A model generated the notes under the pieces. That model did not search any database and was not told the DNA's origin. It saw nothing but the letters and a program-made list of their open reading frames with translations. This document shows, piece after piece, positions 48,734 through 60,833 of a DNA stretch of 64,000 nt (position 1 is its first letter; each line of letters starts with the position of its first letter). Origin of the DNA: Terriglobus roseus (lineage in GTDB: Bacteria; Acidobacteriota; Terriglobia; Terriglobales; Acidobacteriaceae); assembly GCF_900102185.1 (NCBI RefSeq), contig NZ_LT629690.1, positions 3,720,001-3,784,000 on the forward strand, given 5' to 3'. The translations under genes were made by a program, and so were the position numbers.

Positions 48734-49434
48734 GGTATGGCTCCGATTCTTTTTCAGTTCTGCGAACACTCGTTGGGTGAGGTCGAAGACGTAAATGACA
48801 TGTCAGACTGCGATCCACGTTAGATCCCCACTGTCACGAAGCGCAATCACTATCATCAGCTCGCGCGAACAGCCGCAAAAAGCCTGAGTGTGGCCAGCCG
48901 GGAATTGTCCTTGTGAATCGCTGCGAATTTTAGTATGAGGGCCCAACTCTTAGCAAAGGCGGCTCTGTTCACTGGTGCAATGCCCAGACACGCAGCGCTC
49001 TTCCCCACATGACATCACTCAGGCCCTCCGCGCTCATGCCGGGCGGGGTGACTCCTTAGAAGTAGTGAACAAGTCTAACGTCTTCACCTGAGTGAGATGA
49101 GCAAGTCTGATTCGTACAGTAATAGTGGTTAGCAATAACACTTGCCATCGATGCGATCCAATCACGAGCCCTGGGCTCATCGCCATCCGCGCTTCTCGCA
49201 TTCATGGCAGCCGAATCATCCCCCGTGAAACCATAATTCGCCCACGATTTGGGTTGGGTGTGGGCTATCGTCTGTTCTGACGACGCCTGACAAAACAAGC
49301 TCAGTGCCCCCCCGTACTAAGAAGTGAAATCTCCTTGACATCGCGTCTGCATTCGCTAGTCTTGGTGATCTCAGCGAGAGCGTATTACTTTGCGTTGCCA
49401 AAACTCATAGGACCGTTTCTGCAGGAGATCTCCC
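48734..49434. other. Divergent intergenic region
   Basis: About 700 bp between the TIM-barrel gene (minus) and the membrane-protein gene (plus). A TTGACA (49335-49340) near the right end may be the -35 of the downstream gene, but the -10 is poor. No gene, repeat or RNA was recognised. Confidence 0.45.
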
Positions 49435-50505
49435 ATGCTGAACTCCACAGCCCTTGAAGTAGCGATTGGGTTGGCGCTGGTCTTCCTTCTCCTCAGTCTG
49501 TTCTGCACCACGATCAATGAGTCCATTGCGGCTGTTCTCGGTTGGAGAGCCAAGACCCTGGAGAAGGGTATCCAAAGTCTGTTCAGTGGCGGCCAGATCA
49601 CCGTGCTGGATGCGAACAACGTTGCAACGCTGCGCAGCCTGTCCGATGTTGTGTACAACCACGGCCTTGTGCAAGGCCTGTACAAGGGAAGCCCTTCCCA
49701 GACGTTTACCCCAGCTTCGCTGATTCATCCGCGCTCACTCCCCTCATACATCCCGTCGCGGGTTTTTGCGAGTACGCTTTACGACATCCTGTTCAACGGA
49801 CCTGCTCAAGCGTTACGAGATACTTCGCCAGCGGCAAGCCTCAGGAACATGCTCGACTCTCTCAACCAATTGCCTGACAGCAAGGCTAAGGAGGCGCTAT
49901 TACTGTTGGTGCGAGAGGCTGGAGGCGATGTTGATGCCACACGAAAGGCGATTGAGGGCTGGTTCAACGATGGCATGGATCGTGTTTCCGGCTGGTATAA
50001 ACGCCGCACACAACTGGTGCTCTTCTCGCTTGGTATTTCCATCGCGATACTGCTGAATATCAACACCATCGCAGTGGCCAAGACGTTCTGGGCGAGTCCG
50101 GCCGCGCGCGCCTATGCCATCAAAGCTGCCGAAAGCTACACACCGCCTCCGCAAGAAGCTACCTCGCCAGGATCCACAACGAGCACCGCGGCCTCAAGCG
50201 TGAAGAAACTACCAGTAACAGCCTCGGAACAGATCGCTGCGCTTGGCGACCTTGCATTACCGCTCGGTTGGAACAACGGTTGGTATCCATGGCCAAAGAA
50301 TTCCAACGGTACCGAGTTCACGGGAAGCCAGTTAATTCTGAACTTCGCCATGACAATCCTGGGGTGGACTCTTACTGGATTTGCTGTGACACTTGGCGCT
50401 CCCTTCTGGTTCGATCTGTTGAACCAGTTCATGGTTGTTCGTTCTACTGTTAAGCCATCTGAAAAGAGCGGCAACGAAGGATCGAAGGATCCGCAGCCCT
50501 CTTAA
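49435..50505 (+). CDS. Membrane protein of unknown function with three hydrophobic segments
   Basis: 356 residues. Segment 1 is LEVAIGLALVFLLLSLFCTTINESIAAVLGW. A soluble helical region of about 150 residues follows. Segment 2 is TQLVLFSLGISIAILLNINTIAVAKTFW. A Ser/Thr/Pro-rich loop leads to segment 3, LILNFAMTILGWTLTGFAVTLGAPFWFDLLNQF. The C-terminal tail is polar. I do not recognise a named family, though the first segment looks like a widespread uncharacterised bacterial membrane protein. It is followed by the propeller gene 42 bp later on the same strand. Both lead toward the unusual cluster at 51761-60057. Confidence 0.8.
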   Translation: MLNSTALEVAIGLALVFLLLSLFCTTINESIAAVLGWRAKTLEKGIQSLFSGGQITVLDANNVATLRSLSDVVYNHGLVQGLYKGSPSQTFTPASLIHPRSLPSYIPSRVFASTLYDILFNGPAQALRDTSPAASLRNMLDSLNQLPDSKAKEALLLLVREAGGDVDATRKAIEGWFNDGMDRVSGWYKRRTQLVLFSLGISIAILLNINTIAVAKTFWASPAARAYAIKAAESYTPPPQEATSPGSTTSTAASSVKKLPVTASEQIAALGDLALPLGWNNGWYPWPKNSNGTEFTGSQLILNFAMTILGWTLTGFAVTLGAPFWFDLLNQFMVVRSTVKPSEKSGNEGSKDPQPS

Positions 50506-50547
50506 ACACTCAACCTCCACCTCACCGCGCTTCACGCCGGACAAGAC

Positions 50548-51777
50548 ATGAAGACCTACCCCTACTCCTTTCACATTGCGCTGGATGGTAACGGCATCAA
50601 CGGTCTTGAAGGCATGGCGGGGATGTGCCTTTTCCACTTCGATCCAGCAGACAACAGCTACGCCTACAAGGTGAAGTATTACGACGGCGCATCCGCCGGC
50701 CACGCTTGCATGGTCAGCCCGGATGGCAAGCATGGTTATCTGGGCAATGCCGGCCAGCACTTGCTGTTCTATGACGCGGCAACGATCGAGGAGCAACAGC
50801 GCATCTCTACGCTGCGGTATGAAGCGAACGATTCCACGATTCGAGGCAGCACGCACGTTGTATGGCTGAACGACAAAGAAGTGTTGACCGCAGTAGGCAA
50901 TTACTTCTATCGCTTTTCCGTGGACAGCCTGGACAAGGGCGAGCGGTTGATGCCACACAACGTGAAGCTGCCACATGGGATGAAGGTAAGTGCGTCCGGC
51001 CGATACTTAGCCTACGGCTCCATGGATAACCCAGCCTTTGGGGCCAAGGGCGAAGCGCGGGAAATTGGCATACTCGACTTAGTCACGGGTGAGGTCACGC
51101 ATCTGCCCATGCCGACGACGTGTTGGCATATCGTCGCGCATCCCAAGAAGGATCTCTTCTACGCAGTATCGTTTCGTGTGCTGCCGCAGGACAACGTGAA
51201 CTATCACGAGTGGGCAATGGCGTTTTTGAAGGAGTATGCCTACGAGATTGATCCAGCCGAAAAGCGGATTTCACGTCATTGGTCGACAAGTCGGGAGACA
51301 CCAGCACACATTAATTCCGACATCACGATCTCCGATACAGAACTCATGTTTTGCAATGGCGGCAGTCAGACGATCGTCTGTGTAGACCTGGAGACATTCT
51401 CAAAGTATCGCGTGATTGATGAGCGTCCCAGCTTTCTTACGCAGATGAAAAACCCTCGTCAGGTCGGCACGCAGATTTACGACGTGCTCGCACGTGGCGG
51501 GCTCTTCAGCAGTTCGAAACACCTGCTGGATGCCATGCGGGTGAGCCGGTTTACTTTTTTGGATTCGATCTATGCGTGTCAGTTGTCGAAGGATCAATCA
51601 CTGCTTTTCACGGCGAATCGTGGATTGAATCACATCACCGTCTACAACTATCCCGAAGCCACCATTCGACTGAGAGTGCAGATGCCCGATCTGCATGAGT
51701 TTATGCCATCGCTTACGACGATTGCCGATCCGCGGCTGGGCTTTCATCACAGCTATCTGATCAGCCCGCAGATGTGA
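50548..51777 (+). CDS. Cytoplasmic beta-propeller-like protein, unknown function
   Basis: 409 residues with no signal peptide. Repeated beta-rich segments of a propeller are seen: HACMVSPDGKHGYLGNAGQHLLFYDAAT, VSASGRYLAYGSMDN, LSKDQSLLFTANRGLNHITVYN. They are followed by a His-rich end LGFHHSYL. No enzymatic signature was found. The last 17 bp overlap the end of the convergent SRPBCC gene. It likely belongs with the preceding membrane protein. Confidence 0.8.
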   Translation: MKTYPYSFHIALDGNGINGLEGMAGMCLFHFDPADNSYAYKVKYYDGASAGHACMVSPDGKHGYLGNAGQHLLFYDAATIEEQQRISTLRYEANDSTIRGSTHVVWLNDKEVLTAVGNYFYRFSVDSLDKGERLMPHNVKLPHGMKVSASGRYLAYGSMDNPAFGAKGEAREIGILDLVTGEVTHLPMPTTCWHIVAHPKKDLFYAVSFRVLPQDNVNYHEWAMAFLKEYAYEIDPAEKRISRHWSTSRETPAHINSDITISDTELMFCNGGSQTIVCVDLETFSKYRVIDERPSFLTQMKNPRQVGTQIYDVLARGGLFSSSKHLLDAMRVSRFTFLDSIYACQLSKDQSLLFTANRGLNHITVYNYPEATIRLRVQMPDLHEFMPSLTTIADPRLGFHHSYLISPQM

Positions 51778-52315
51778 CCTGCGGCGTTGCGTTCGCGAGC
51801 GTCTCCGCGGCCATGGCGAGCTTGCGAAAGTTACCGGGAATGAGGGACGTCACAAAGCTCTCGGCAGCGGCGGCGACGGTCGATTCAAGAATAGAAGGCA
51901 CACCCGGAAGTCCCTTTGCATTTAAGCTGAACTCGCCCGCGAAAGTAATACGCGTACCACGCCCGCCAAGGGCCGGTTCAAACGTTGTCAGGCCTGTGCA
52001 GCGCGTGCGATCTGGCGCGAAGTGCAGCTCGATTTGCCATGCACATTCATGATTCTTTTCGTGCCACATTGCGCGGTCTGTCCAGGCCAACATATCGGAC
52101 TTGATGACTGTAGAAAGCACAGCGGGAAACTTAGCCTTTGCCTGCCACAGGTTGACGAGAAAGATGTCGCCATCAGGCTGCGTCGTTCGTTCCTGAACAG
52201 CGACGCTCTCAATTTCATCAAGATGAGGCACGAGTTCGCCGAGCCGGTCACGAATGGCTAACCATGCGTCTTCCACTGGGATCTTCACAATTTGAATGGA
52301 CTTGAATGTTTTCAC
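51761..52315 (-). CDS. SRPBCC-family lipid-binding-like protein
   Basis: 184 residues with the START/polyketide-cyclase pattern: FKSIQIVKIPVEDAWLAIRDRL, FLVNLWQAKAKFPAV, LTTFEPALGGRGTRITFAGEFSLNAKG, and a final amphipathic helix. It is the last gene of a four-gene minus-strand operon and overlaps the SDR gene by 4 bp. Members bind hydrophobic ligands such as polyketides or lipids. The ligand here is unknown. Confidence 0.82.
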   Translation of the reverse strand: MKTFKSIQIVKIPVEDAWLAIRDRLGELVPHLDEIESVAVQERTTQPDGDIFLVNLWQAKAKFPAVLSTVIKSDMLAWTDRAMWHEKNHECAWQIELHFAPDRTRCTGLTTFEPALGGRGTRITFAGEFSLNAKGLPGVPSILESTVAAAAESFVTSLIPGNFRKLAMAAETLANATPQVTSAG

Positions 52316-53373
52316 GGTGCTTCCTTCATGAGTGCTGCGCGTGCGTCGTAGACTTCGCGGCCGAGCGAGAGCGTTTGCCGCAGCGGAATGGAAACATGTT
52401 TGCCAGCTACCAGTGAGGCGATGGCAGTGGCAAGTGCAGCACGCGCGGGTCCTGGCGCATAGCCCAGTTCATCTGCCGCCTTCGCATGGCTGTACCAGTA
52501 GAACTGCCCAACCATTTTCGCTTGTTCGCGTGTTGTGGTTGGGCGCGTGCCAGAAAACTGCGCCCACATCTCATGCGCGGTCGCGGCCAGAAAGCTGATG
52601 GTGTGGTTTGCGTAGAACTGAGGACCGGAGACACCGCAGAGTTCACCGACGGTGCGATGAATCAGCGACCACTCCATGTTTTCGGAACCAAGCAGGTAGC
52701 ACTCACCACGTCTTCCCTTCTCAGCAGCGAGAATATGCCCCCGAGCGACGTCGGTCGCGGATACGATGTTGCACCCACCGGGAAAGGTAGTGCGAAAAGG
52801 ATCGGAGAGATAGGCGATGATGATGCCGTTGCTTGGACTAAGTTTTGTGTCGTGCGGACCTACCGTCATGCATGGGTTGACGACCACAAGATCAAGGTCA
52901 AGGTCTGCAGCGAGTTTTAGTGCCGTACGTTCCTGGTGCAGCTTACTGAGGCAATATGCTGGCGACGATGTTTCATCGGGCGCATCCGTCTCTGACCGTA
53001 CTGCGGTGTAACTGGAAGAGCCGAACACCACCGACGAAGACGTAAGTACTACGCGCTTCACGCTCGCGGTGCGTGCTGCAATCAATACGTTAGATACGCC
53101 ATCAACGGCAGTCTTCTCCAGGTCATCATCGGTGATGCCCCAGTACGAAAACACGGAAGCCACATGGAAAACGACATCGCAACCGGCGACAGCAGGAAGC
53201 AGTGTCTCCGGTTGCAGTACATCGCCGTAAACGATGGCGAGAGATAGATCCTTGATCGCACTCAGGTCGCTGCTGGTGCGCACGAAGGCGCGCACCTCAT
53301 ATCCATCCTTGAGCAAAGCACGACAAAGGTTTGCGCCGATGAGACCATTTGCGCCTGTGACAAGAGCGATCAT
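52312..53373 (-). CDS. NAD(P)-dependent SDR, 3-beta-hydroxysteroid/dihydroflavonol reductase-like
   Basis: 353 residues. The Rossmann motif is TGANGLIGANL (residues 6-16). The active site is seen as LTSSSVVFG and YCLSK (Tyr and Lys, near residues 140-145). The C-terminal half is longer than in sugar epimerases and resembles HpnA/sterol-type extended SDRs. It abuts the 729-residue gene (stop at 53374). The substrate could be a hydroxylated lipid or terpenoid, but that rests on family resemblance alone. Confidence 0.88.
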   Translation of the reverse strand: MIALVTGANGLIGANLCRALLKDGYEVRAFVRTSSDLSAIKDLSLAIVYGDVLQPETLLPAVAGCDVVFHVASVFSYWGITDDDLEKTAVDGVSNVLIAARTASVKRVVLTSSSVVFGSSSYTAVRSETDAPDETSSPAYCLSKLHQERTALKLAADLDLDLVVVNPCMTVGPHDTKLSPSNGIIIAYLSDPFRTTFPGGCNIVSATDVARGHILAAEKGRRGECYLLGSENMEWSLIHRTVGELCGVSGPQFYANHTISFLAATAHEMWAQFSGTRPTTTREQAKMVGQFYWYSHAKAADELGYAPGPARAALATAIASLVAGKHVSIPLRQTLSLGREVYDARAALMKEAP

Positions 53374-55563
53374 TCAACTCTCCGGATTCTGTGTGCGATT
53401 CGGTGCGACGTCTCGCTGAATAGCCCTGGCTAAATCTCTCAAGAAATCGACTGCGCCATCCGTAACAGATTGCAGTTGAGCTTTGTCGATCAATGAAGAT
53501 ACCGGGCTGGCTGCAGCATCTGGCGTATTGGACGACGGCGCGAAGTGTGAGAAACCGTCCGCATCCACATAGATGGGTGGAGGAGGCGTCGTACGCAGCG
53601 AGAGCTTCGATGTAAGACGGTCGACCGCAACGCGTGCACTATCGGTAAGCTCGCTGAGTGAGTTGGAGAGCTTCGCGGAAGCAGGCTTAGGCTGTGTGTC
53701 GGCAGCAGTCCAGGGCTGGCCAACGCGGTATTCTCGTTGCTCAAATTGCGCGGTGAAGTTTGCGATTGTCTTCGTGAAGAAGTTCTTATACGCATCCGCC
53801 ACGAGGTAGTTCTTGAGCGCGGGATTCAGGTCAAGTTGCATCATCTGCCAGAACACCGGAAGAGAAAACTCCTGCCGCCCAACGATGGTGATTTCCACTT
53901 CATTCGCAGGTGTCCGCTTGAAGATAACGATGCCATCATCGAACCTTGCGGAGTTATTTTCACTCTTGATGGTGCGCCACCAGATTTTCTGCTCGTTCTC
54001 CGTGTATCGCGCAAACTCAAGTTTGGAAACATCGATCGGTTGGCCTCCGCTCGGCGCCGTGTAATTGGGCTGCGGCAGATAGATGTTGCGCTCCGCCTGA
54101 TGCGTCACACGACCAGCCTTATCGCGAAAAACGGGAACACACGAGCCACCGATGTAATCGTTCATCATGCGAATGGAACGGGTAATATCCACCTTTGCCA
54201 CAAAGTCATCGAATGGGATTGGGATTTCACGCGAGACATGGAACAGGATGGAATGATCGAGGGTGTGAAGCCGCATTCCATTGGCATCCGGCGGGAACTG
54301 CAGCACCAGTTGTTCCAGCGGTTCCATGTAGTCCTGCGACGCTTCATAGTCTGCCGCCGTTAAATCCTGCAAAGAGATGTTGAGCGGACGCTCCATCCAC
54401 TTCAACTTGTCCTTCGCAAACATCACCTTCGATGCATCATTGAGTTGGTTTGCGCTTCCCAGTGTGTAATTCAGACTTAGAAAGGCGGCGAACGAGAGTG
54501 GGTCTGCATCCAGGCTGCCGAACTGCGCGGCAAGTGTGCTGTTGATCCTGTCCGTCATCGCGTCCTTAAATGGAAAGAGCAGCCGATCCACACTCTGCAG
54601 CCAGGCAATGGCAGTGCGCTGCACTTCGAGCGATCCATTTCGTTTGGCCACAGCATCGGCCACCATGGGATGAACATTCTTTACTGCGGGAAACGGCGTC
54701 AGATCTCCAATGACCGAATACTGAGACGGTAGACCCTGTTCACGTAGTAGTTTCGCCACAATGGGAGACGTGTATGGATCGACGCCAAACTTATTTGCGA
54801 GCGTCCAGTCCGCCAAGGTTGCGCTGCTGCTTGCGATGATCGTTGAGACAGCGAGCGGCATTGCGCATCGCGAACCTGCGCTGCCATGGTTCGCCAGGTA
54901 CGCATCCACAATAGCGAAATGAACAGGCGTGTGTTGCAGCAACTCACTGCACACATCTTCCGGGCGCAGACGGTGATAGTACTGCAACTCAGTGTCCTGC
55001 AACGGCAAAACGCCAATCAGGTTTTGCGCTGTGCCAGCAAAGCTGAACTCATCATCGGTCTTTGCCTTCGCGAAGCTGATGCGAAAATCCGCATTCTTCC
55101 ACGAAGCATTGAGGGACGAACCGCTGAGGATGCTGGTTGCAGGAAACCCCGCATCGCAAAGATCTTCGCTAAGGTCTGAGAAATCGTATGCATTCTGTTG
55201 CGTGGTTTCGAAGCGATAGCCCGCGAGGTCTGCCACGATAAGTGGGTCGCGATTTTCCAACCAAAACCCTGAGCTGTTCTGAGCTGTGCCAATCGTTACA
55301 TTGGTGTATCCAGCGTTGTGCAGCCAATCAACCAGATGCTCTACCAATGCAGGGTCGGTGATGCAGGTGGCAGGCTTGAAATAGAAGTTCAGGTCGGGCT
55401 TGATGAAGATAGTTAACTGGGCGGCCGAAGTACTTGTCTGCTCGCACCGCAGGTTTAGTACCTGCAACAAGCCCGCCTGCGAAACAGCTTCGTCGAAACA
55501 GGCGAATTTGTCCTGCGGATCAGTAACGAGAGCTACGACGACGCCTTGTGTGGAGTCGTTCAT
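53374..55563 (-). CDS. 729-residue protein with DUF362-like N-terminus, unknown function
   Basis: The first 230 residues resemble DUF362: VVVALVTDPQDKFACFDEAV, IFIKPDLNFYFKPATCITDPALVEHLVDWLHNAGYTNVTIGTA. The middle (about 300-500) is mixed alpha/beta with no match I know (FHVSREIPIPFDDFVAKVDITRSIR). A Pro-rich tail and a final amphipathic helix region (VDRLTSKL, VTDGAVDFLRDLARAI) recall membrane or granule association. No [4Fe-4S] ferredoxin motif is present, unlike many DUF362 proteins. It overlaps the AarF gene by 4 bp. It appears specific to this cluster. Confidence 0.75.
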   Translation of the reverse strand: MNDSTQGVVVALVTDPQDKFACFDEAVSQAGLLQVLNLRCEQTSTSAAQLTIFIKPDLNFYFKPATCITDPALVEHLVDWLHNAGYTNVTIGTAQNSSGFWLENRDPLIVADLAGYRFETTQQNAYDFSDLSEDLCDAGFPATSILSGSSLNASWKNADFRISFAKAKTDDEFSFAGTAQNLIGVLPLQDTELQYYHRLRPEDVCSELLQHTPVHFAIVDAYLANHGSAGSRCAMPLAVSTIIASSSATLADWTLANKFGVDPYTSPIVAKLLREQGLPSQYSVIGDLTPFPAVKNVHPMVADAVAKRNGSLEVQRTAIAWLQSVDRLLFPFKDAMTDRINSTLAAQFGSLDADPLSFAAFLSLNYTLGSANQLNDASKVMFAKDKLKWMERPLNISLQDLTAADYEASQDYMEPLEQLVLQFPPDANGMRLHTLDHSILFHVSREIPIPFDDFVAKVDITRSIRMMNDYIGGSCVPVFRDKAGRVTHQAERNIYLPQPNYTAPSGGQPIDVSKLEFARYTENEQKIWWRTIKSENNSARFDDGIVIFKRTPANEVEITIVGRQEFSLPVFWQMMQLDLNPALKNYLVADAYKNFFTKTIANFTAQFEQREYRVGQPWTAADTQPKPASAKLSNSLSELTDSARVAVDRLTSKLSLRTTPPPPIYVDADGFSHFAPSSNTPDAAASPVSSLIDKAQLQSVTDGAVDFLRDLARAIQRDVAPNRTQNPES

Positions 55564-57257
55564 CGCTCTTGCCTCGCAGAAGCGTTCTTGTATCGAAACC
55601 CGCGATGAATCAAAGCTACGATGATGCTTGAAACGGCAGCAAGGACAGTCACCGCTAAGACTGCCTGTCGAACTGTTAGCAGCTTAGCCAGAATGAAGCT
55701 GCAGATAATGCCGCAGCCACCGAGCATAAGCAGGCCAACAAACAGGACCAACGCCAGTCGCGCATTAGCCCGGTCATAGCACCGACAGGCGTCTTCAAGG
55801 CCCAGGTGATCAAGCTGGATTTTGAGCTGTCCCTGCGCGAGTTGAGTGAACGTCGTCAGCAGCGTTGCAGAAAAATCCTGAAACCGCAGGAGAGTTCCCA
55901 GACCAATCCCGTAGTCCTGATGAGCGTTGGCATCCTGCGGCAATTCTGCCGGCTGGTTTTGACGAAGCAATGGCATTGCAATCGGAATCAAATCAAAAGC
56001 AGGATCGAGATTCTTGCCAACACTGTCTGCCGTTGCCAATACCTTAAAGGCGAGGTAGAAACCGCGTGGCAGGATAAGTCGGTATTTTCCAGTGATTGCC
56101 AAAATATCTGCGAGCAGACGGGGTACGACAACAGCATGCGTGGTTCGATGGCTCGCAAGAAAACGCCTCATGTCCTCACGCAGTGCGGCAGCATCAATGC
56201 TTCCGGTCGAATCCGAAAGAGCAAGGACGGAGGCCGTCGCTGATTCCGCATTCTGCTGCAACAAGCTGTACAGCAGCGTGTTCACGCACGCACGTTCCGG
56301 GGGACCAAGCTCTCCTACCAGGCCAAGGTCATAGAACCCGATCGCGCCATCCTTCGAGACGATGACATTGTCCGCATGTGGATCGCCGTGAAAGAACCCG
56401 AAACAGAAGATCTGCCGCAGTAACGTTCTCGCAAAGGCCTGCGCGGTCGACTTGTTGAAGGGCGTATAGCCCTGGAGATCCGCTAATTTCGTCCCCGGCT
56501 CATACGTTGTTGTAAGAACGTGACGCGCAGAGTGGGAACGGATGACGCGTGGAACACGAATACCGGAGTCATGTTCGAATTGCCAGGCAAACCGGTCAAG
56601 GTTGTTTGCCTCCAGTTCATAGTCCAACTCAGACTGAACGTCGTTCATAAAGTCTGAGACAAGTCGAGCCGCGGAATCGCCGTCGCCGCCAGTCTTCATG
56701 CGAAGAATTAGCTGTTGGATGATCGCGGTATCGCAGTGCAGCAGTTCTTCAAGGCCTTTTCCCTGCACTTTTACTGCGACTTCCGTGCCATCCTTCAACC
56801 ACGCACGATGCACCTGTCCGATAGAGCCTGAGGCGATGGGTATGCTCTCGATACGCTCAAAGAGCATAGAGATCGTGCCCTTGAGTTCCTCCTCGATGAC
56901 AGCTTGGGCCACTGCAAAGGAAAATGGCGTGGTTTCATCCTGCAGCTTGGCCAGTTCGTCGCGGAACGGCTTACTTAGAATTTCATCGCGCGTGGAAAGT
57001 AACTGGCCGAACTTAATGAAGGCGGGCCCAAGTTCACAGAGCGCGTCACGCACAGTTTTTGGTGAAACGCGTGGCGTGAATCTGCCACGGGCAAGATTCT
57101 CAAACATCTCAGAGAGGCCATACCGCACCAGGATTGCGAGCACGTCGCGGTAGCGTCCACGGCTGCGCGCATCAAGTATTCCGGTGATAGGTTCTGCCAC
57201 GGCCAATGTAGAGCCTCTTGCAGGGGGAAAATGTGCTGTGGGGGCCAAGATTATCAT
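55560..57257 (-). CDS. AarF/UbiB/ABC1 atypical kinase-like protein
   Basis: About 565 residues from the ATG at 57257; ATG at 57317 or 57302 would add up to 20. The family hallmarks are present: the KxGQ motif as KFGQLLSTR, GQVHRAWLKDGTEVAVKVQ (Ala-rich loop and Lys), FGFFHGDPHADN (catalytic loop) and FYDLGLVGEL (DFG-like). Two C-terminal membrane helices follow (ALVLFVGLLMLGGCGIICSFIL and AVLAVTVLAAVSSIIVALI). The family supports ubiquinone and other lipid metabolism through ATPase activity rather than protein phosphorylation. It is the first gene of the minus-strand operon, divergent from the 147-residue repeat gene. Confidence 0.9.
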   Translation of the reverse strand: MIILAPTAHFPPARGSTLAVAEPITGILDARSRGRYRDVLAILVRYGLSEMFENLARGRFTPRVSPKTVRDALCELGPAFIKFGQLLSTRDEILSKPFRDELAKLQDETTPFSFAVAQAVIEEELKGTISMLFERIESIPIASGSIGQVHRAWLKDGTEVAVKVQGKGLEELLHCDTAIIQQLILRMKTGGDGDSAARLVSDFMNDVQSELDYELEANNLDRFAWQFEHDSGIRVPRVIRSHSARHVLTTTYEPGTKLADLQGYTPFNKSTAQAFARTLLRQIFCFGFFHGDPHADNVIVSKDGAIGFYDLGLVGELGPPERACVNTLLYSLLQQNAESATASVLALSDSTGSIDAAALREDMRRFLASHRTTHAVVVPRLLADILAITGKYRLILPRGFYLAFKVLATADSVGKNLDPAFDLIPIAMPLLRQNQPAELPQDANAHQDYGIGLGTLLRFQDFSATLLTTFTQLAQGQLKIQLDHLGLEDACRCYDRANARLALVLFVGLLMLGGCGIICSFILAKLLTVRQAVLAVTVLAAVSSIIVALIHRGFRYKNASARQER

Positions 57258-57359
57258 CAATTTCGGGCCATAAAAGTAAATTGTGAAATCTGTTGTTGTC
57301 ATGCGATGAGTGCGCATATACTCCGGGCAGAATCAATACGCACTGAAAAGGCGGATTCT

Positions 57360-57803
57360 ATGTCTAAGGGCGGCACCCCCACAATTCCTAACGATTACAC
57401 GTATTCCATTGGCGGCACTGGAACTACACTGTCTGTCGATTACGGGTTGGATAACATCCATGTGAAAGAGTTGCCCGCGGTTGAAGTGGGCGTGACCTCG
57501 TTTCCAGAGGTTACGGGCAACGCTAACATCGCGATTAAAGAGTTGCCTCCCATCGTCTCCACCGTGACGACACTGTCCACTGTGAGTACGACTTCAAGTG
57601 TGGCAATTACAGAAATCCCGCCCATCACGACGAATCTGAATATCGCCGTCACGGAGATACCGGAACAGCGCATTCACTACCCGGCTCACTATCAGCTTGG
57701 GTTCAGTCTTCTGGGCATGGAGATCTGGGGCCTCTCGCTCTGCGGCGAAGCGCAGGTCATCAACGAAAAGTACGTTCCGCGTAGAACCGAGATTTGCCGT
57801 TAG
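57360..57803 (+). CDS. 147-residue protein with four short I-x-[IV]-[KT]-E-[IL]-P repeats
   Basis: The ATG at 57360 starts the coherent sequence; an earlier frame start at 57231 lies in the divergent promoter and is rejected. Four copies of a short unit are seen: NIHVKELPA (residue 32), NIAIKELPP (56), SVAITEIPP (80) and NIAVTEIPE (94). The spacing is 24, 24 and 14 residues, with Thr/Ser/Val-rich strands between. This suggests a small beta-solenoid or extended fibre. The C-terminal 45 residues (HYQLGFSLLGMEIWGLSLCGEAQVI) are a separate short domain. There is no signal peptide. No family is recognised. It leads the plus-strand operon of four tightly linked genes. Confidence 0.8.
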   Translation: MSKGGTPTIPNDYTYSIGGTGTTLSVDYGLDNIHVKELPAVEVGVTSFPEVTGNANIAIKELPPIVSTVTTLSTVSTTSSVAITEIPPITTNLNIAVTEIPEQRIHYPAHYQLGFSLLGMEIWGLSLCGEAQVINEKYVPRRTEICR

Positions 57804-57816
57804 AGCAGGAGTTCCA

Positions 57817-58611
57817 ATGGCCGAGTCAGTGATTCAGTACGCCAATGTTGACCCAAAGGGGGTTGTCTTTTACGGCCCTCCGAAGATGCTGCGTGGCACG
57901 TTACCGTTGGTCAATCCGACCGATCAGAAATTGAAGATGCAGTCGCTGGCTGTCACCACCGATACATTGCGTGGACCTGCATCTCTGCCGTTGCAAACCA
58001 TCGCCGTAGGTGTACGGCTGATGCCTGGGGAACAGGCCGCTGTGCGCAGTACGATTCAATTGGATCCGCAGACTGCTCCGGGAACGTACTCTTTCAGCGT
58101 CGATGTTGCCGGAACATCCGTTCCAGTGACCGCGCATGTGACGGAAGTCGTCGACTTCCGCATTGAGCCAGCATCGGTGACACTGCTCGCGGGATCGGAA
58201 AACTCGTTCGAACGAACCTTCGTCATTGAGAATGCAGGCAATGTTCCACTGCCGCTCGGCGAACGGTGTGAAGCTCCATTGACCGATTCGATCGATCTGA
58301 AGACATCCATGTTGCACGGGCTTAGCAACGCGGGCGATGCGGAAGTGAAAGAAAAAGTGAATGCATGGCTGAAGGACTGGGGCGAGCGCATGCCCGGCAT
58401 GCTTGTTGTCCTTCGCGACCCGATCGTACTGAGCCCCGGTAACAAAATGACTGCAACGGCGACCTTCCAGCTCCCAGATACTTTGCAGCCATTCCGCTGC
58501 TATACGGCGAACCTGCAGCTTTACAACGCATTTCTTACCGTGACGGTCTACACGACGCGCAACGTGAACACATCCAGTAAGAAGAAACGGGGGAATGAAG
58601 ATGGCGTGTAG
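57817..58611 (+). CDS. Ig-like beta-sandwich protein, unknown function
   Basis: 264 residues from the ATG at 57817, which follows AGGAG. A longer frame from 57697 reads the previous gene out of frame. Two or three Ig-like modules are suggested: LRGTLPLVNPTDQKLKMQSLAV, GTYSFSVDVAGTSVPVTAHV, RIEPASVTLLAGSENSFERTFVIENAGNVPLPL, and SPGNKMTATATFQLPD near the end. A helical insert (residues 175-200) breaks the strands. There is no signal peptide, so it would be cytoplasmic unless exported otherwise, unusual for such domains. The end overlaps the next gene by 11 bp. Confidence 0.8.
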   Translation: MAESVIQYANVDPKGVVFYGPPKMLRGTLPLVNPTDQKLKMQSLAVTTDTLRGPASLPLQTIAVGVRLMPGEQAAVRSTIQLDPQTAPGTYSFSVDVAGTSVPVTAHVTEVVDFRIEPASVTLLAGSENSFERTFVIENAGNVPLPLGERCEAPLTDSIDLKTSMLHGLSNAGDAEVKEKVNAWLKDWGERMPGMLVVLRDPIVLSPGNKMTATATFQLPDTLQPFRCYTANLQLYNAFLTVTVYTTRNVNTSSKKKRGNEDGV

Positions 58612-59350
58612 CGAATCCAGTGTCTCCAATCCAATGACTCAGGCCAGCCAGCAGGGCATGCAGTGGTTTACGGATTACACGAAAATGAACCTCCAGATGG
58701 CGCAAACTGCGACGCAGATGCTGACACCGGTGATGTCTGCCTGGATGAGTTGGTATCAGTCGCTGCTGCCGTCGCAGTTGAGCGATCTCACCAAGTCAAC
58801 GAGTGACACGCTGATGTCCATGGCGAAATCAGCCATGTGCGACATTCCTTCCACGACTTGTCCCCCGAAGTGCGCTTGCGATATCGACTGGTCAGCCTAC
58901 CCTGGCGAAATCCGTAAATCGACAGTGAAGATCAGGAACACCTCAAAAGACAGCATTGAATACACTTTTGTTGGTAAGCCCTTCTCACATTGCGGTAAGG
59001 CACTTGATCTGATTCCTGAGATCAACACCCAGTCCGTCACTGCTGCTCCAGGCGAGACGGTGAGTGTTGTGATCGGCGTTACGGTGGGCGAACAGTTCCA
59101 GAGCGGTGTTGCTTACGAGTCAGAAGTTCTGGTGCGCGGCAAGTATGAGCGCTGCATCAAGATCAAGTTGAGCGTAGCCTGCGGCTGCGACGATGCATGC
59201 AGCTTCGACCAGGGTGACATCCCATACCGCGTGCGCCCAGACAACTGGTACAAGCACTTCCAGTGCAGTGAACCGTGCTTTGAAGCGATCCAGCCGGGGC
59301 GCACTACAACTGGCGTCAATGGGACAGACGTTGCCGGAGTGAAGTCTTGA
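58601..59350 (+). CDS. Phasin-like helical domain fused to a Cys-rich beta domain
   Basis: 249 residues from the ATG at 58601, chosen because GGGGGA is well spaced; the ATG at 58595 is too close. Residues 10-80 are amphipathic and rich in Met, Gln and Ala (MQWFTDYTKMNLQMAQTATQM), recalling phasin proteins that coat hydrophobic granules. Residues 85-200 are a beta-sandwich-like domain with clustered cysteines (CDIPSTTCPPKCACD and CGCDDAC), possibly metal-binding or disulfide-linked. The fusion is unfamiliar to me. The end overlaps the next gene by 4 bp. Confidence 0.75.
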   Translation: MACSESSVSNPMTQASQQGMQWFTDYTKMNLQMAQTATQMLTPVMSAWMSWYQSLLPSQLSDLTKSTSDTLMSMAKSAMCDIPSTTCPPKCACDIDWSAYPGEIRKSTVKIRNTSKDSIEYTFVGKPFSHCGKALDLIPEINTQSVTAAPGETVSVVIGVTVGEQFQSGVAYESEVLVRGKYERCIKIKLSVACGCDDACSFDQGDIPYRVRPDNWYKHFQCSEPCFEAIQPGRTTTGVNGTDVAGVKS

Positions 59351-60057
59351 CGAATAACTCTCAAACGCTTGCAGACGCTTTGAAAACTCTTGAAGGCCAG
59401 GTCGTTGAGTCGTACGTTGACGGTTGGAAGAGCTATTGGAAGCTTGTGACAGATGTCGCGCGCGATCCATCATCGTTTCAGACTGCACAAAAGGAATATC
59501 TGAACCATGTGGTTCAGACAGTGCCAGGGAATGTCTCGAAGACCCTTCAGGCTGGTGTGCGGGTGTATGGAGCTCTTATTCAATCCGGCGGCCAGTTGGC
59601 TGGCGAACTCTACACGCGCACCGCACAAGACTTGACCAAGGCCGCAACTGCAGCTGCGACAACCGCAGAGACGGTAGCTGCGCGCGTCGTGGAACCAGCA
59701 CCGGTTGCGCCTTCGGAGTTTACCTTTGAGGGGTACGCGGAAGAAACACTCAGCAAGAGATTTCTTGTGTCGAACAGGTCTCCACATCCCGTCGACGTTG
59801 CTCTTGAGATCTCCAGCTTTACCCCGGATACTGAAGGTGCTTTGGTTCAAGTCAATGTGACACCGCAAACGTTTTCTCTTGCAGCCAATGAAGAGAACGT
59901 GGTGTCGTGCGCTGTGACGATCCCTCCCTCTCTTACGCCGATGAAGGACCACCGCGCTGTGCTTTCCGCTCCAGGCTTACCTTCTCTGAGCATTGGTTTG
60001 CATGTTCGCAGCATGGGTGAGCGGGACGTTGTGATTGAGGATGCGCCCACGGCTTGA
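59347..60057 (+). CDS. Second phasin-like plus beta-sandwich fusion protein
   Basis: 236 residues from a TTG start that overlaps the upstream stop (TTGA), with GGAG 6 bp ahead. Residues 5-110 form a long amphipathic helical region (LKTLEGQVVESYVDGWKSYW, YLNHVVQTVPGNVSKTLQAG, ATAAATTAETVAARVV) like a phasin. Residues 120-230 are a single Ig-like domain (FLVSNRSPHPVDVALEISSF, VNVTPQTFSLAANEENVVSC, HRAVLSAPGLPSLSIGLHV). The same two-part plan as the preceding protein, without its cysteine cluster, suggests an old duplication. It ends 11 bp before the convergent PAP2 gene. Confidence 0.75.
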   Translation: MTNNSQTLADALKTLEGQVVESYVDGWKSYWKLVTDVARDPSSFQTAQKEYLNHVVQTVPGNVSKTLQAGVRVYGALIQSGGQLAGELYTRTAQDLTKAATAAATTAETVAARVVEPAPVAPSEFTFEGYAEETLSKRFLVSNRSPHPVDVALEISSFTPDTEGALVQVNVTPQTFSLAANEENVVSCAVTIPPSLTPMKDHRAVLSAPGLPSLSIGLHVRSMGERDVVIEDAPTA

Positions 60058-60068
60058 TCCGCCTTGCA

Positions 60069-60638
60069 TTAGAAGAGGCAGAGAGCGAGAGATGTCGCAA
60101 CAAACGATCCGACTCCAATCCCTGCGATAAGATCCGAAGGATAGTGCTGGCCGCTTGCGACGCGAGCCCAGCACAGCAACAACAATCCGAACACAAGCTC
60201 TGGGATAGCTCGATGATGTTGCCAGCAAAGCAACACACCGACCACGGATAAGGTCATGCAATGACCGCTAGGGAAAGAGTATTGATCCAGGCAGCGCCCA
60301 CGATACGGAACGTTCTTGGCGAAGTGAAATGGCCGTTCGCGAGCAAGGCGTGGCTTGGTGGAACCGTACAACAGATGCGCTACGACAACCCCACTCAAAA
60401 GCGCGAATAACAGCTTCCACTCATGCAGAAAAATGACCCACAGCGCCAGCGGTGCATAAATCCAGCCATTGCACATCTGATTGGTGACATCTGCAAGTAG
60501 GCGAAACGGCCTGGGTTCTGATAGCCGTACCAGCTTCACGACCCACGGTATTTCCCTGTGATTCATGCGCAGGAATAACGCATCAATCCGAGCACGAGAC
60601 GAGGATGTAAGCGGGGCTAGGGCGTTTGTGGAAGACAT
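60069..60638 (-). CDS. PAP2-superfamily membrane phosphatase
   Basis: 189 residues with about five helices. The three phosphatase motifs are present: KPRLARERP (motif 1), YSFPSGHC (motif 2) and ARVASGQHYPSD (motif 3 with His and Asp). Such enzymes dephosphorylate phosphatidic acid, undecaprenyl or other isoprenyl diphosphates at the membrane. It is convergent with the second phasin-like gene and lies 226 bp from the dnaE2 end. The substrate is unknown. Confidence 0.9.
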   Translation of the reverse strand: MSSTNALAPLTSSSRARIDALFLRMNHREIPWVVKLVRLSEPRPFRLLADVTNQMCNGWIYAPLALWVIFLHEWKLLFALLSGVVVAHLLYGSTKPRLARERPFHFAKNVPYRGRCLDQYSFPSGHCMTLSVVGVLLCWQHHRAIPELVFGLLLLCWARVASGQHYPSDLIAGIGVGSFVATSLALCLF

Positions 60639-60833
60639 TGTCTTTCACCTGGCACTTGCAGAGATCAGAGGCGTGTTGCCGCGATGCTACACCCGTCTCA
60701 ATTCGCGAAACAAGCATAAAGCGCAAGAAATCGAAAATTAGGTGTTTCCTGCGGATCGCAGCTTCAGTATGGAACACCAGGTTGAAACGATCTGCAAGCA
60801 GATGTGGACTACGGTCCACCACGAGCCACTCTC

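Follow-up and report, generated by a model that had tools for sequence, protein, structure and literature searches.

A rare operon of Terriglobus roseus with predicted helix and PapD-like domain proteins, whose core genes adjoin different enzymes in different bacteria

We analysed a window of 64,000 nucleotides of the Terriglobus roseus genome (contig NZ_LT629690.1), in which four genes on the + strand, P1 to P4, form an operon, the last two overlapping. P1 (57360..57803, +; 147 aa), the first gene of the operon, encodes short beta-like repeats and a conserved C-terminal segment. P2 (57817..58611, +; 264 aa), better conserved than any other member of the unit, is Ig-like and is probably made up of two such domains. 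P3 (starting at 58595 or 58601 and ending at 59350, +) is predicted to combine amphipathic N-terminal helices, a PapD/ASH/MSP-like domain and a Cys-rich tail, and P4 (59347..60057, +), the TTG start of which overlaps the stop of P3, four predicted helices and a PapD/ASH/MSP-like domain. The initial annotation had singled out P3 and P4; the unit is larger than these two, and P1 and P2 belong to it as well. Comparison with the copies in a congener (genome G013; 95% identical for P3 and 91% for P4) gave dN/dS of 0.04, 0.01, 0.07 and 0.10 for P1, P2, P3 and P4, respectively, and the last two values indicate that P3 and P4 are real genes under purifying selection. All four proteins stayed below the cut-offs of the Pfam and NCBIfam families, hydropathy gave no recognisable signal peptide or transmembrane helix in any of them, and P2, P3 and P4 had no convincing sequence match among solved structures.

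The repeats of P1 follow the pattern I-x-[IV]-x-E-[LI]-P and vary in number among the homologues; the conserved end of P1 (57360-57803, +) reads LGFSLLGMEIWGLSLCGEAQVINEKYVP. A match of P1 to phrog_9224 (PHROG, E 4e-5), a family the function of which is not known, is probably driven by the repeats and was set aside.

The operon lies in a block (49328-60760) that is colinear with G013 at 91%, and the DNA flanking it in G013 did not match. The block edges, at 49328 and 60760, are sharp; its G+C content is that of the remaining window, and the window's only tRNA (2863-2955) lies far from it. At the left edge is a membrane protein with a hydrophobic segment and no family (49435..50505, +); the left part of the block also holds a beta-propeller-like protein with weak matches (50548..51777, +), colinear in G013 too. 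Then follow, on the - strand, an SRPBCC (polyketide cyclase/lipid-transport-like) protein with weak Pfam matches (51761..52315), an SDR of the HpnA / 3-beta-HSD / OleD-like type (52312..53373; HpnA E 1e-78, below cut-off), a protein of 729 aa that starts with a DUF362 domain and whose long additional C-terminal region belongs to no family (53374..55563), and an AarF/UbiB-type ABC1 kinase (55560..57317; ABC1 E 3e-57), conserved in the block and divergent from P1. A PAP2-family phosphatase (60069..60638, -; PAP2 E 6e-18) stands at the right edge. The full-length DUF362 protein was found, among 61 genomes searched, only in the window genome and, at high identity, in G013; among the close relatives searched it occurs only where P1-P4 occur.

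P3 and P4 had been described as sharing a plan of N-terminal amphipathic helices and a C-terminal beta-sandwich-like domain, and the amphipathicity is clear. The mean hydrophobic moment was 0.32 over residues 12-80 of P3 and 0.40 over residues 5-113 of P4, versus 0.15 and 0.19 in shuffles, and of 1000 shuffles at most 0.2%, or not a single one, reached the observed value. AlphaFold2 models of both proteins show helices followed by a beta domain, the helices lying at 11-55 and 58-76 in P3 and, four in number, within 4-107 in P4; the pLDDT of the helices is only ~25-47, against ~65-87 for the beta domains. The models were built on 5-6 sequences, six aligned homologues in the case of P3, whereas the alignment for P4 took in three proteins linked to a polyketide synthase (PKS), the homology of which to P4 is not proven. 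The described richness in Ala, Gln and Met applies to the helix of P3 (36-43% A+Q+M) but not to P4 (16-23%), except for its Ala-rich second half (31%). We considered P3 and P4 as duplicates of one another and rejected the idea, no sequence homology between them being detectable; the plan is shared at the level of domains, not of sequence.

These features raise the question of whether P3 and P4 are true phasins that coat polyhydroxyalkanoate (PHA) granules, with the Ig-like domain as an add-on for protein display. A cytosolic location and the amphipathic, Ala/Gln/Met-rich N-terminus of P3 would suit this role. However, phasin families of Pfam and NCBIfam gave no match at E<=5, the only Phasin_2 (PF09361) signal in the same genome lies elsewhere and below cut-off, and those genes of the conserved block that were typed include no recognised PHA synthase or depolymerase. 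Because of the missing profile match and the absence of a recognised PHA gene from the block, we regard true phasins as highly improbable. The term 'phasin-like' used in the initial annotation does not hold beyond a loose analogy, given also the low confidence of the helices, which make up just a portion of each protein, and the lack of detectable homology between P3 and P4. Our literature search returned no relevant paper joining a phasin with an Ig-like domain or a PKS.

In the models, residues 92-192 of P3, followed by the unordered Cys-rich tail, and residues 109-222 of P4 are PapD-like beta-sandwiches, of seven strands in P3 and about seven in P4. By Foldseek and VIA-align, both fall in with ASH and MSP/VAP domains and with those of PapD-type chaperones (Foldseek E between ~1e-5 and 1e-6, at best 2.0e-6 and 2.5e-6; VIA Z ~10-11 over ~100 residues, at best 11.8 for P3 and 10.7 for P4), which places the proposed Ig-like domains in the PapD/ASH/MSP-like branch specifically. 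Some Ig-like domains of glycosidases, subtilisins and integrins score almost equally, and what is matched is therefore a class of fold rather than a function. Neither protein exceeded a curated cut-off for a PapD-like family; fn3_5, OCRL-like_ASH and PapD_N appeared at E 0.03-0.25 only. A phasin structure is absent among the fold matches listed, a comparison that barely probes the low-confidence helices.

P3 contains 12 Cys, and the Cys cluster pointed out earlier is conserved: all six homologues retain C80, C87, C91, C200, C222 and C226. The cluster would hold a structural metal, most likely zinc. Alternatively, the Cys could form disulphides, if P1-P4 built a structure of the cell envelope or outside the cell, such as a pilus-like or surface fibre, exported by an unrecognised route. 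The fold matches to PapD and Caf1M, the fibre-like repeats of P1 and its weak similarity to functionally uncharacterised phage families are in line with such a fibre. We nevertheless judge it improbable, as P1-P4 lack a signal peptide or transmembrane helix by hydropathy, and the genes of the block include no recognised usher, sortase or secretion gene.

The occurrence of P1-P4 is sporadic. P3 was found in 2 of 41 close relatives, the window genome included, and P4 likewise, if a match in G018 (E 7e-4, locus L006), which has no P1, P2 or P3 as a neighbour and was regarded as a chance hit, is left out. The genome searches covered part of the phyla, and the rarity is thus an impression rather than a census. 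More distant homologous loci were reached through searches with P1 and P2. Homologues of P1, P2 and P3 are adjacent in the window, in G013, G076, G233 and G514 and at locus L022, in the order P1-P2-P3 or P2-P1-P3; the set recurs in other Acidobacteriota and in genomes assigned to Pseudomonadota, each time with different enzymes. A further, partial P2 in G823 is cut off by the contig end. Homologues of P2 are 44-46% identical in three loci and 23% identical in that of G514 (L035; Z=22 versus shuffles). Window P3 and G514 P3 are 37% identical over 153 aa (BLASTP E 9e-30, Z=46), whereas the similarity of window P3 to P3 of the PKS-linked loci is weak (Z~5, profile E 0.0015), and its assignment leans partly on gene order. 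Weak matches to P2 in G386, G317 and G819 and to P1 in G434 were not accepted as belonging to the set, and a Nostoc match to P2 (29%, E 0.05) has unrelated neighbours. Plasmids searched by tblastn with P1-P4 and their homologues gave nothing real, and viral contigs searched with P1 held no relative. P1-P2-P3(-P4) is a rare gene set, without description in the libraries and papers searched.

The partner enzymes change between loci. In two genomes of the same family as the window genome (G076, locus L020; G233, locus L019), P2-P1-P3 faces a type I PKS of 1776-1777 aa. The arrangement at L022, on a contig titled 'Proteobacteria' (genome G444), is the same; L022 comes from a sampling project shared with the G233 record, so G444 may be misbinned. 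Beside the PKS in all three loci lies a protein of 330-331 aa (L022:7606-8601, -; L020:16682-17674, -; L019:2805-3800, +) in which a helical segment is duplicated in tandem (Z 7-9) and an Ig-like domain forms the C-terminus. These proteins had no Pfam match over cut-off, and the L022 copy, the sole one scanned, had none in NCBIfam. In G514, which is independent of these genomes and belongs to the same phylum set as G444, the genes after P1-P2-P3 encode an alpha/beta hydrolase, a GMC oxidoreductase resembling cholesterol oxidase, and a Dyp-type peroxidase. The stretch after P1-P2-P3 (L035:846-5561, -) holds, besides the peroxidase, a 423-aa protein, catalase-like by eye but without family match, and two family-less proteins of 192 and 502 aa.

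Since the partners vary yet suit hydrophobic substrates, a shared structural service best explains this apparently cytosolic set. We propose, with a probability of roughly 35%, that P1-P4 form a cytosolic scaffold or coat on a lipophilic surface for enzymes with hydrophobic products. The predicted amphipathic helices of P3 and P4 would rest on a lipid or product surface, either a membrane or an inclusion; their PapD/MSP-like domains, joined by the Ig-like protein P2 and by P1 with its repeats, would form the scaffold or coat, which would hold the partner enzymes at that surface. All partners suit lipophilic substrates (SDR/SRPBCC/AarF; type I PKS with KS-AT-KR-ACP-MT domains; GMC oxidoreductase/hydrolase/Dyp peroxidase). 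The other helix-plus-Ig-like protein, beside the PKS, the adjacency of P1-P2-P3, the lack of export signals, the amphipathicity and the six kept Cys are all consistent with a scaffold. In addition, the PapD/ASH/MSP fold class serves elsewhere as a protein-interaction scaffold. Against a scaffold or coat stand the low pLDDT of the P3 and P4 helices, the poor conservation of the helical part of P3 in G514 (not significant) and the lack of a significant sequence match between window P4 and the PKS-linked protein. Moreover, neighbours in an operon may be unconnected with the enzymes, and the PapD-like fold is common and reveals no function.

The main rival to the scaffold or coat is a direct enzyme adaptor without lipid: P1-P4 may act as adaptors or chaperones, accessory subunits that attach directly to the biosynthetic enzymes encoded next to them and stabilise these with neither a lipid surface nor an inclusion, the helices bundling for oligomerisation. 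Their tight linkage to differing enzyme sets, the frequent use of PapD-like domains to hold partner proteins and the tandem helical repeat in the PKS-linked protein would all suit adaptors. The partners, however, are so unlike one another that it is difficult to imagine a single conserved surface binding them all, and the strong amphipathicity does not decide, as it fits a bundle too. We consider adaptors possible but somewhat unlikely. It is rather unlikely that P1-P4 make a protein compartment or inclusion coat new to description, of helix-anchored PapD/MSP-like subunits, the cargo pathway of which is swapped between lineages. In such a compartment the PKS, the sterol-oxidase-like set and the SDR/SRPBCC/DUF362/AarF set would be alternative cargoes, by analogy with encapsulin or microcompartment shells.

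If the scaffold or coat is correct, bacteria would have a scaffold for pathways to hydrophobic products that is modular and swappable and is made of PapD/MSP-like domains, a fold that eukaryotes use at membrane contacts and centrosomes. P1-P2-P3 would then be a marker gene set for new lipid or polyketide clusters, and the proteins a new class for display on lipid surfaces. Even with a wrong mechanism, several unannotated proteins are united in one conserved module.

Among known systems, the 331-aa PKS-linked protein of L022, L020 and L019 resembles P4 in being helical and then Ig-like and in adjoining P1-P2-P3, but it has two helical repeats, and neither sequence nor profile comparison with window P4 was significant; P4 may thus be confined to the window lineage. 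NPCBM-associated / COG1470-type Ig-like domains (PF10633) are approached by the G514 homologue of P2 (E 3.9e-5, 24.2 bits, just missing the cut-off of 24.4), whereas window P2, apparently cytosolic and in a distinct operon, has no match. Phasins (PhaP) are small cytosolic proteins with amphipathic helices, as P3 and P4 are predicted to be, and P3 and P4 would likewise act at a hydrophobic surface. The Aeromonas PhaP structure, however, shows a granule-surface protein that is an all-helical coiled-coil tetramer (PMC5180188), while P3 and P4 add a PapD-like beta domain and lack both a phasin profile match and recognised PHA genes in their block. The ASH (CEP192, OCRL, Hydin) and MSP/VAP domains share the predicted fold of the C-terminal domains of P3 and P4 at ~10-20% identity; the latter differ in being bacterial, in being fused to N-terminal helices and, in P3, in the Cys-rich tail. 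According to PMC11922060, ASH domains take part in the assembly of the centrosome scaffold.
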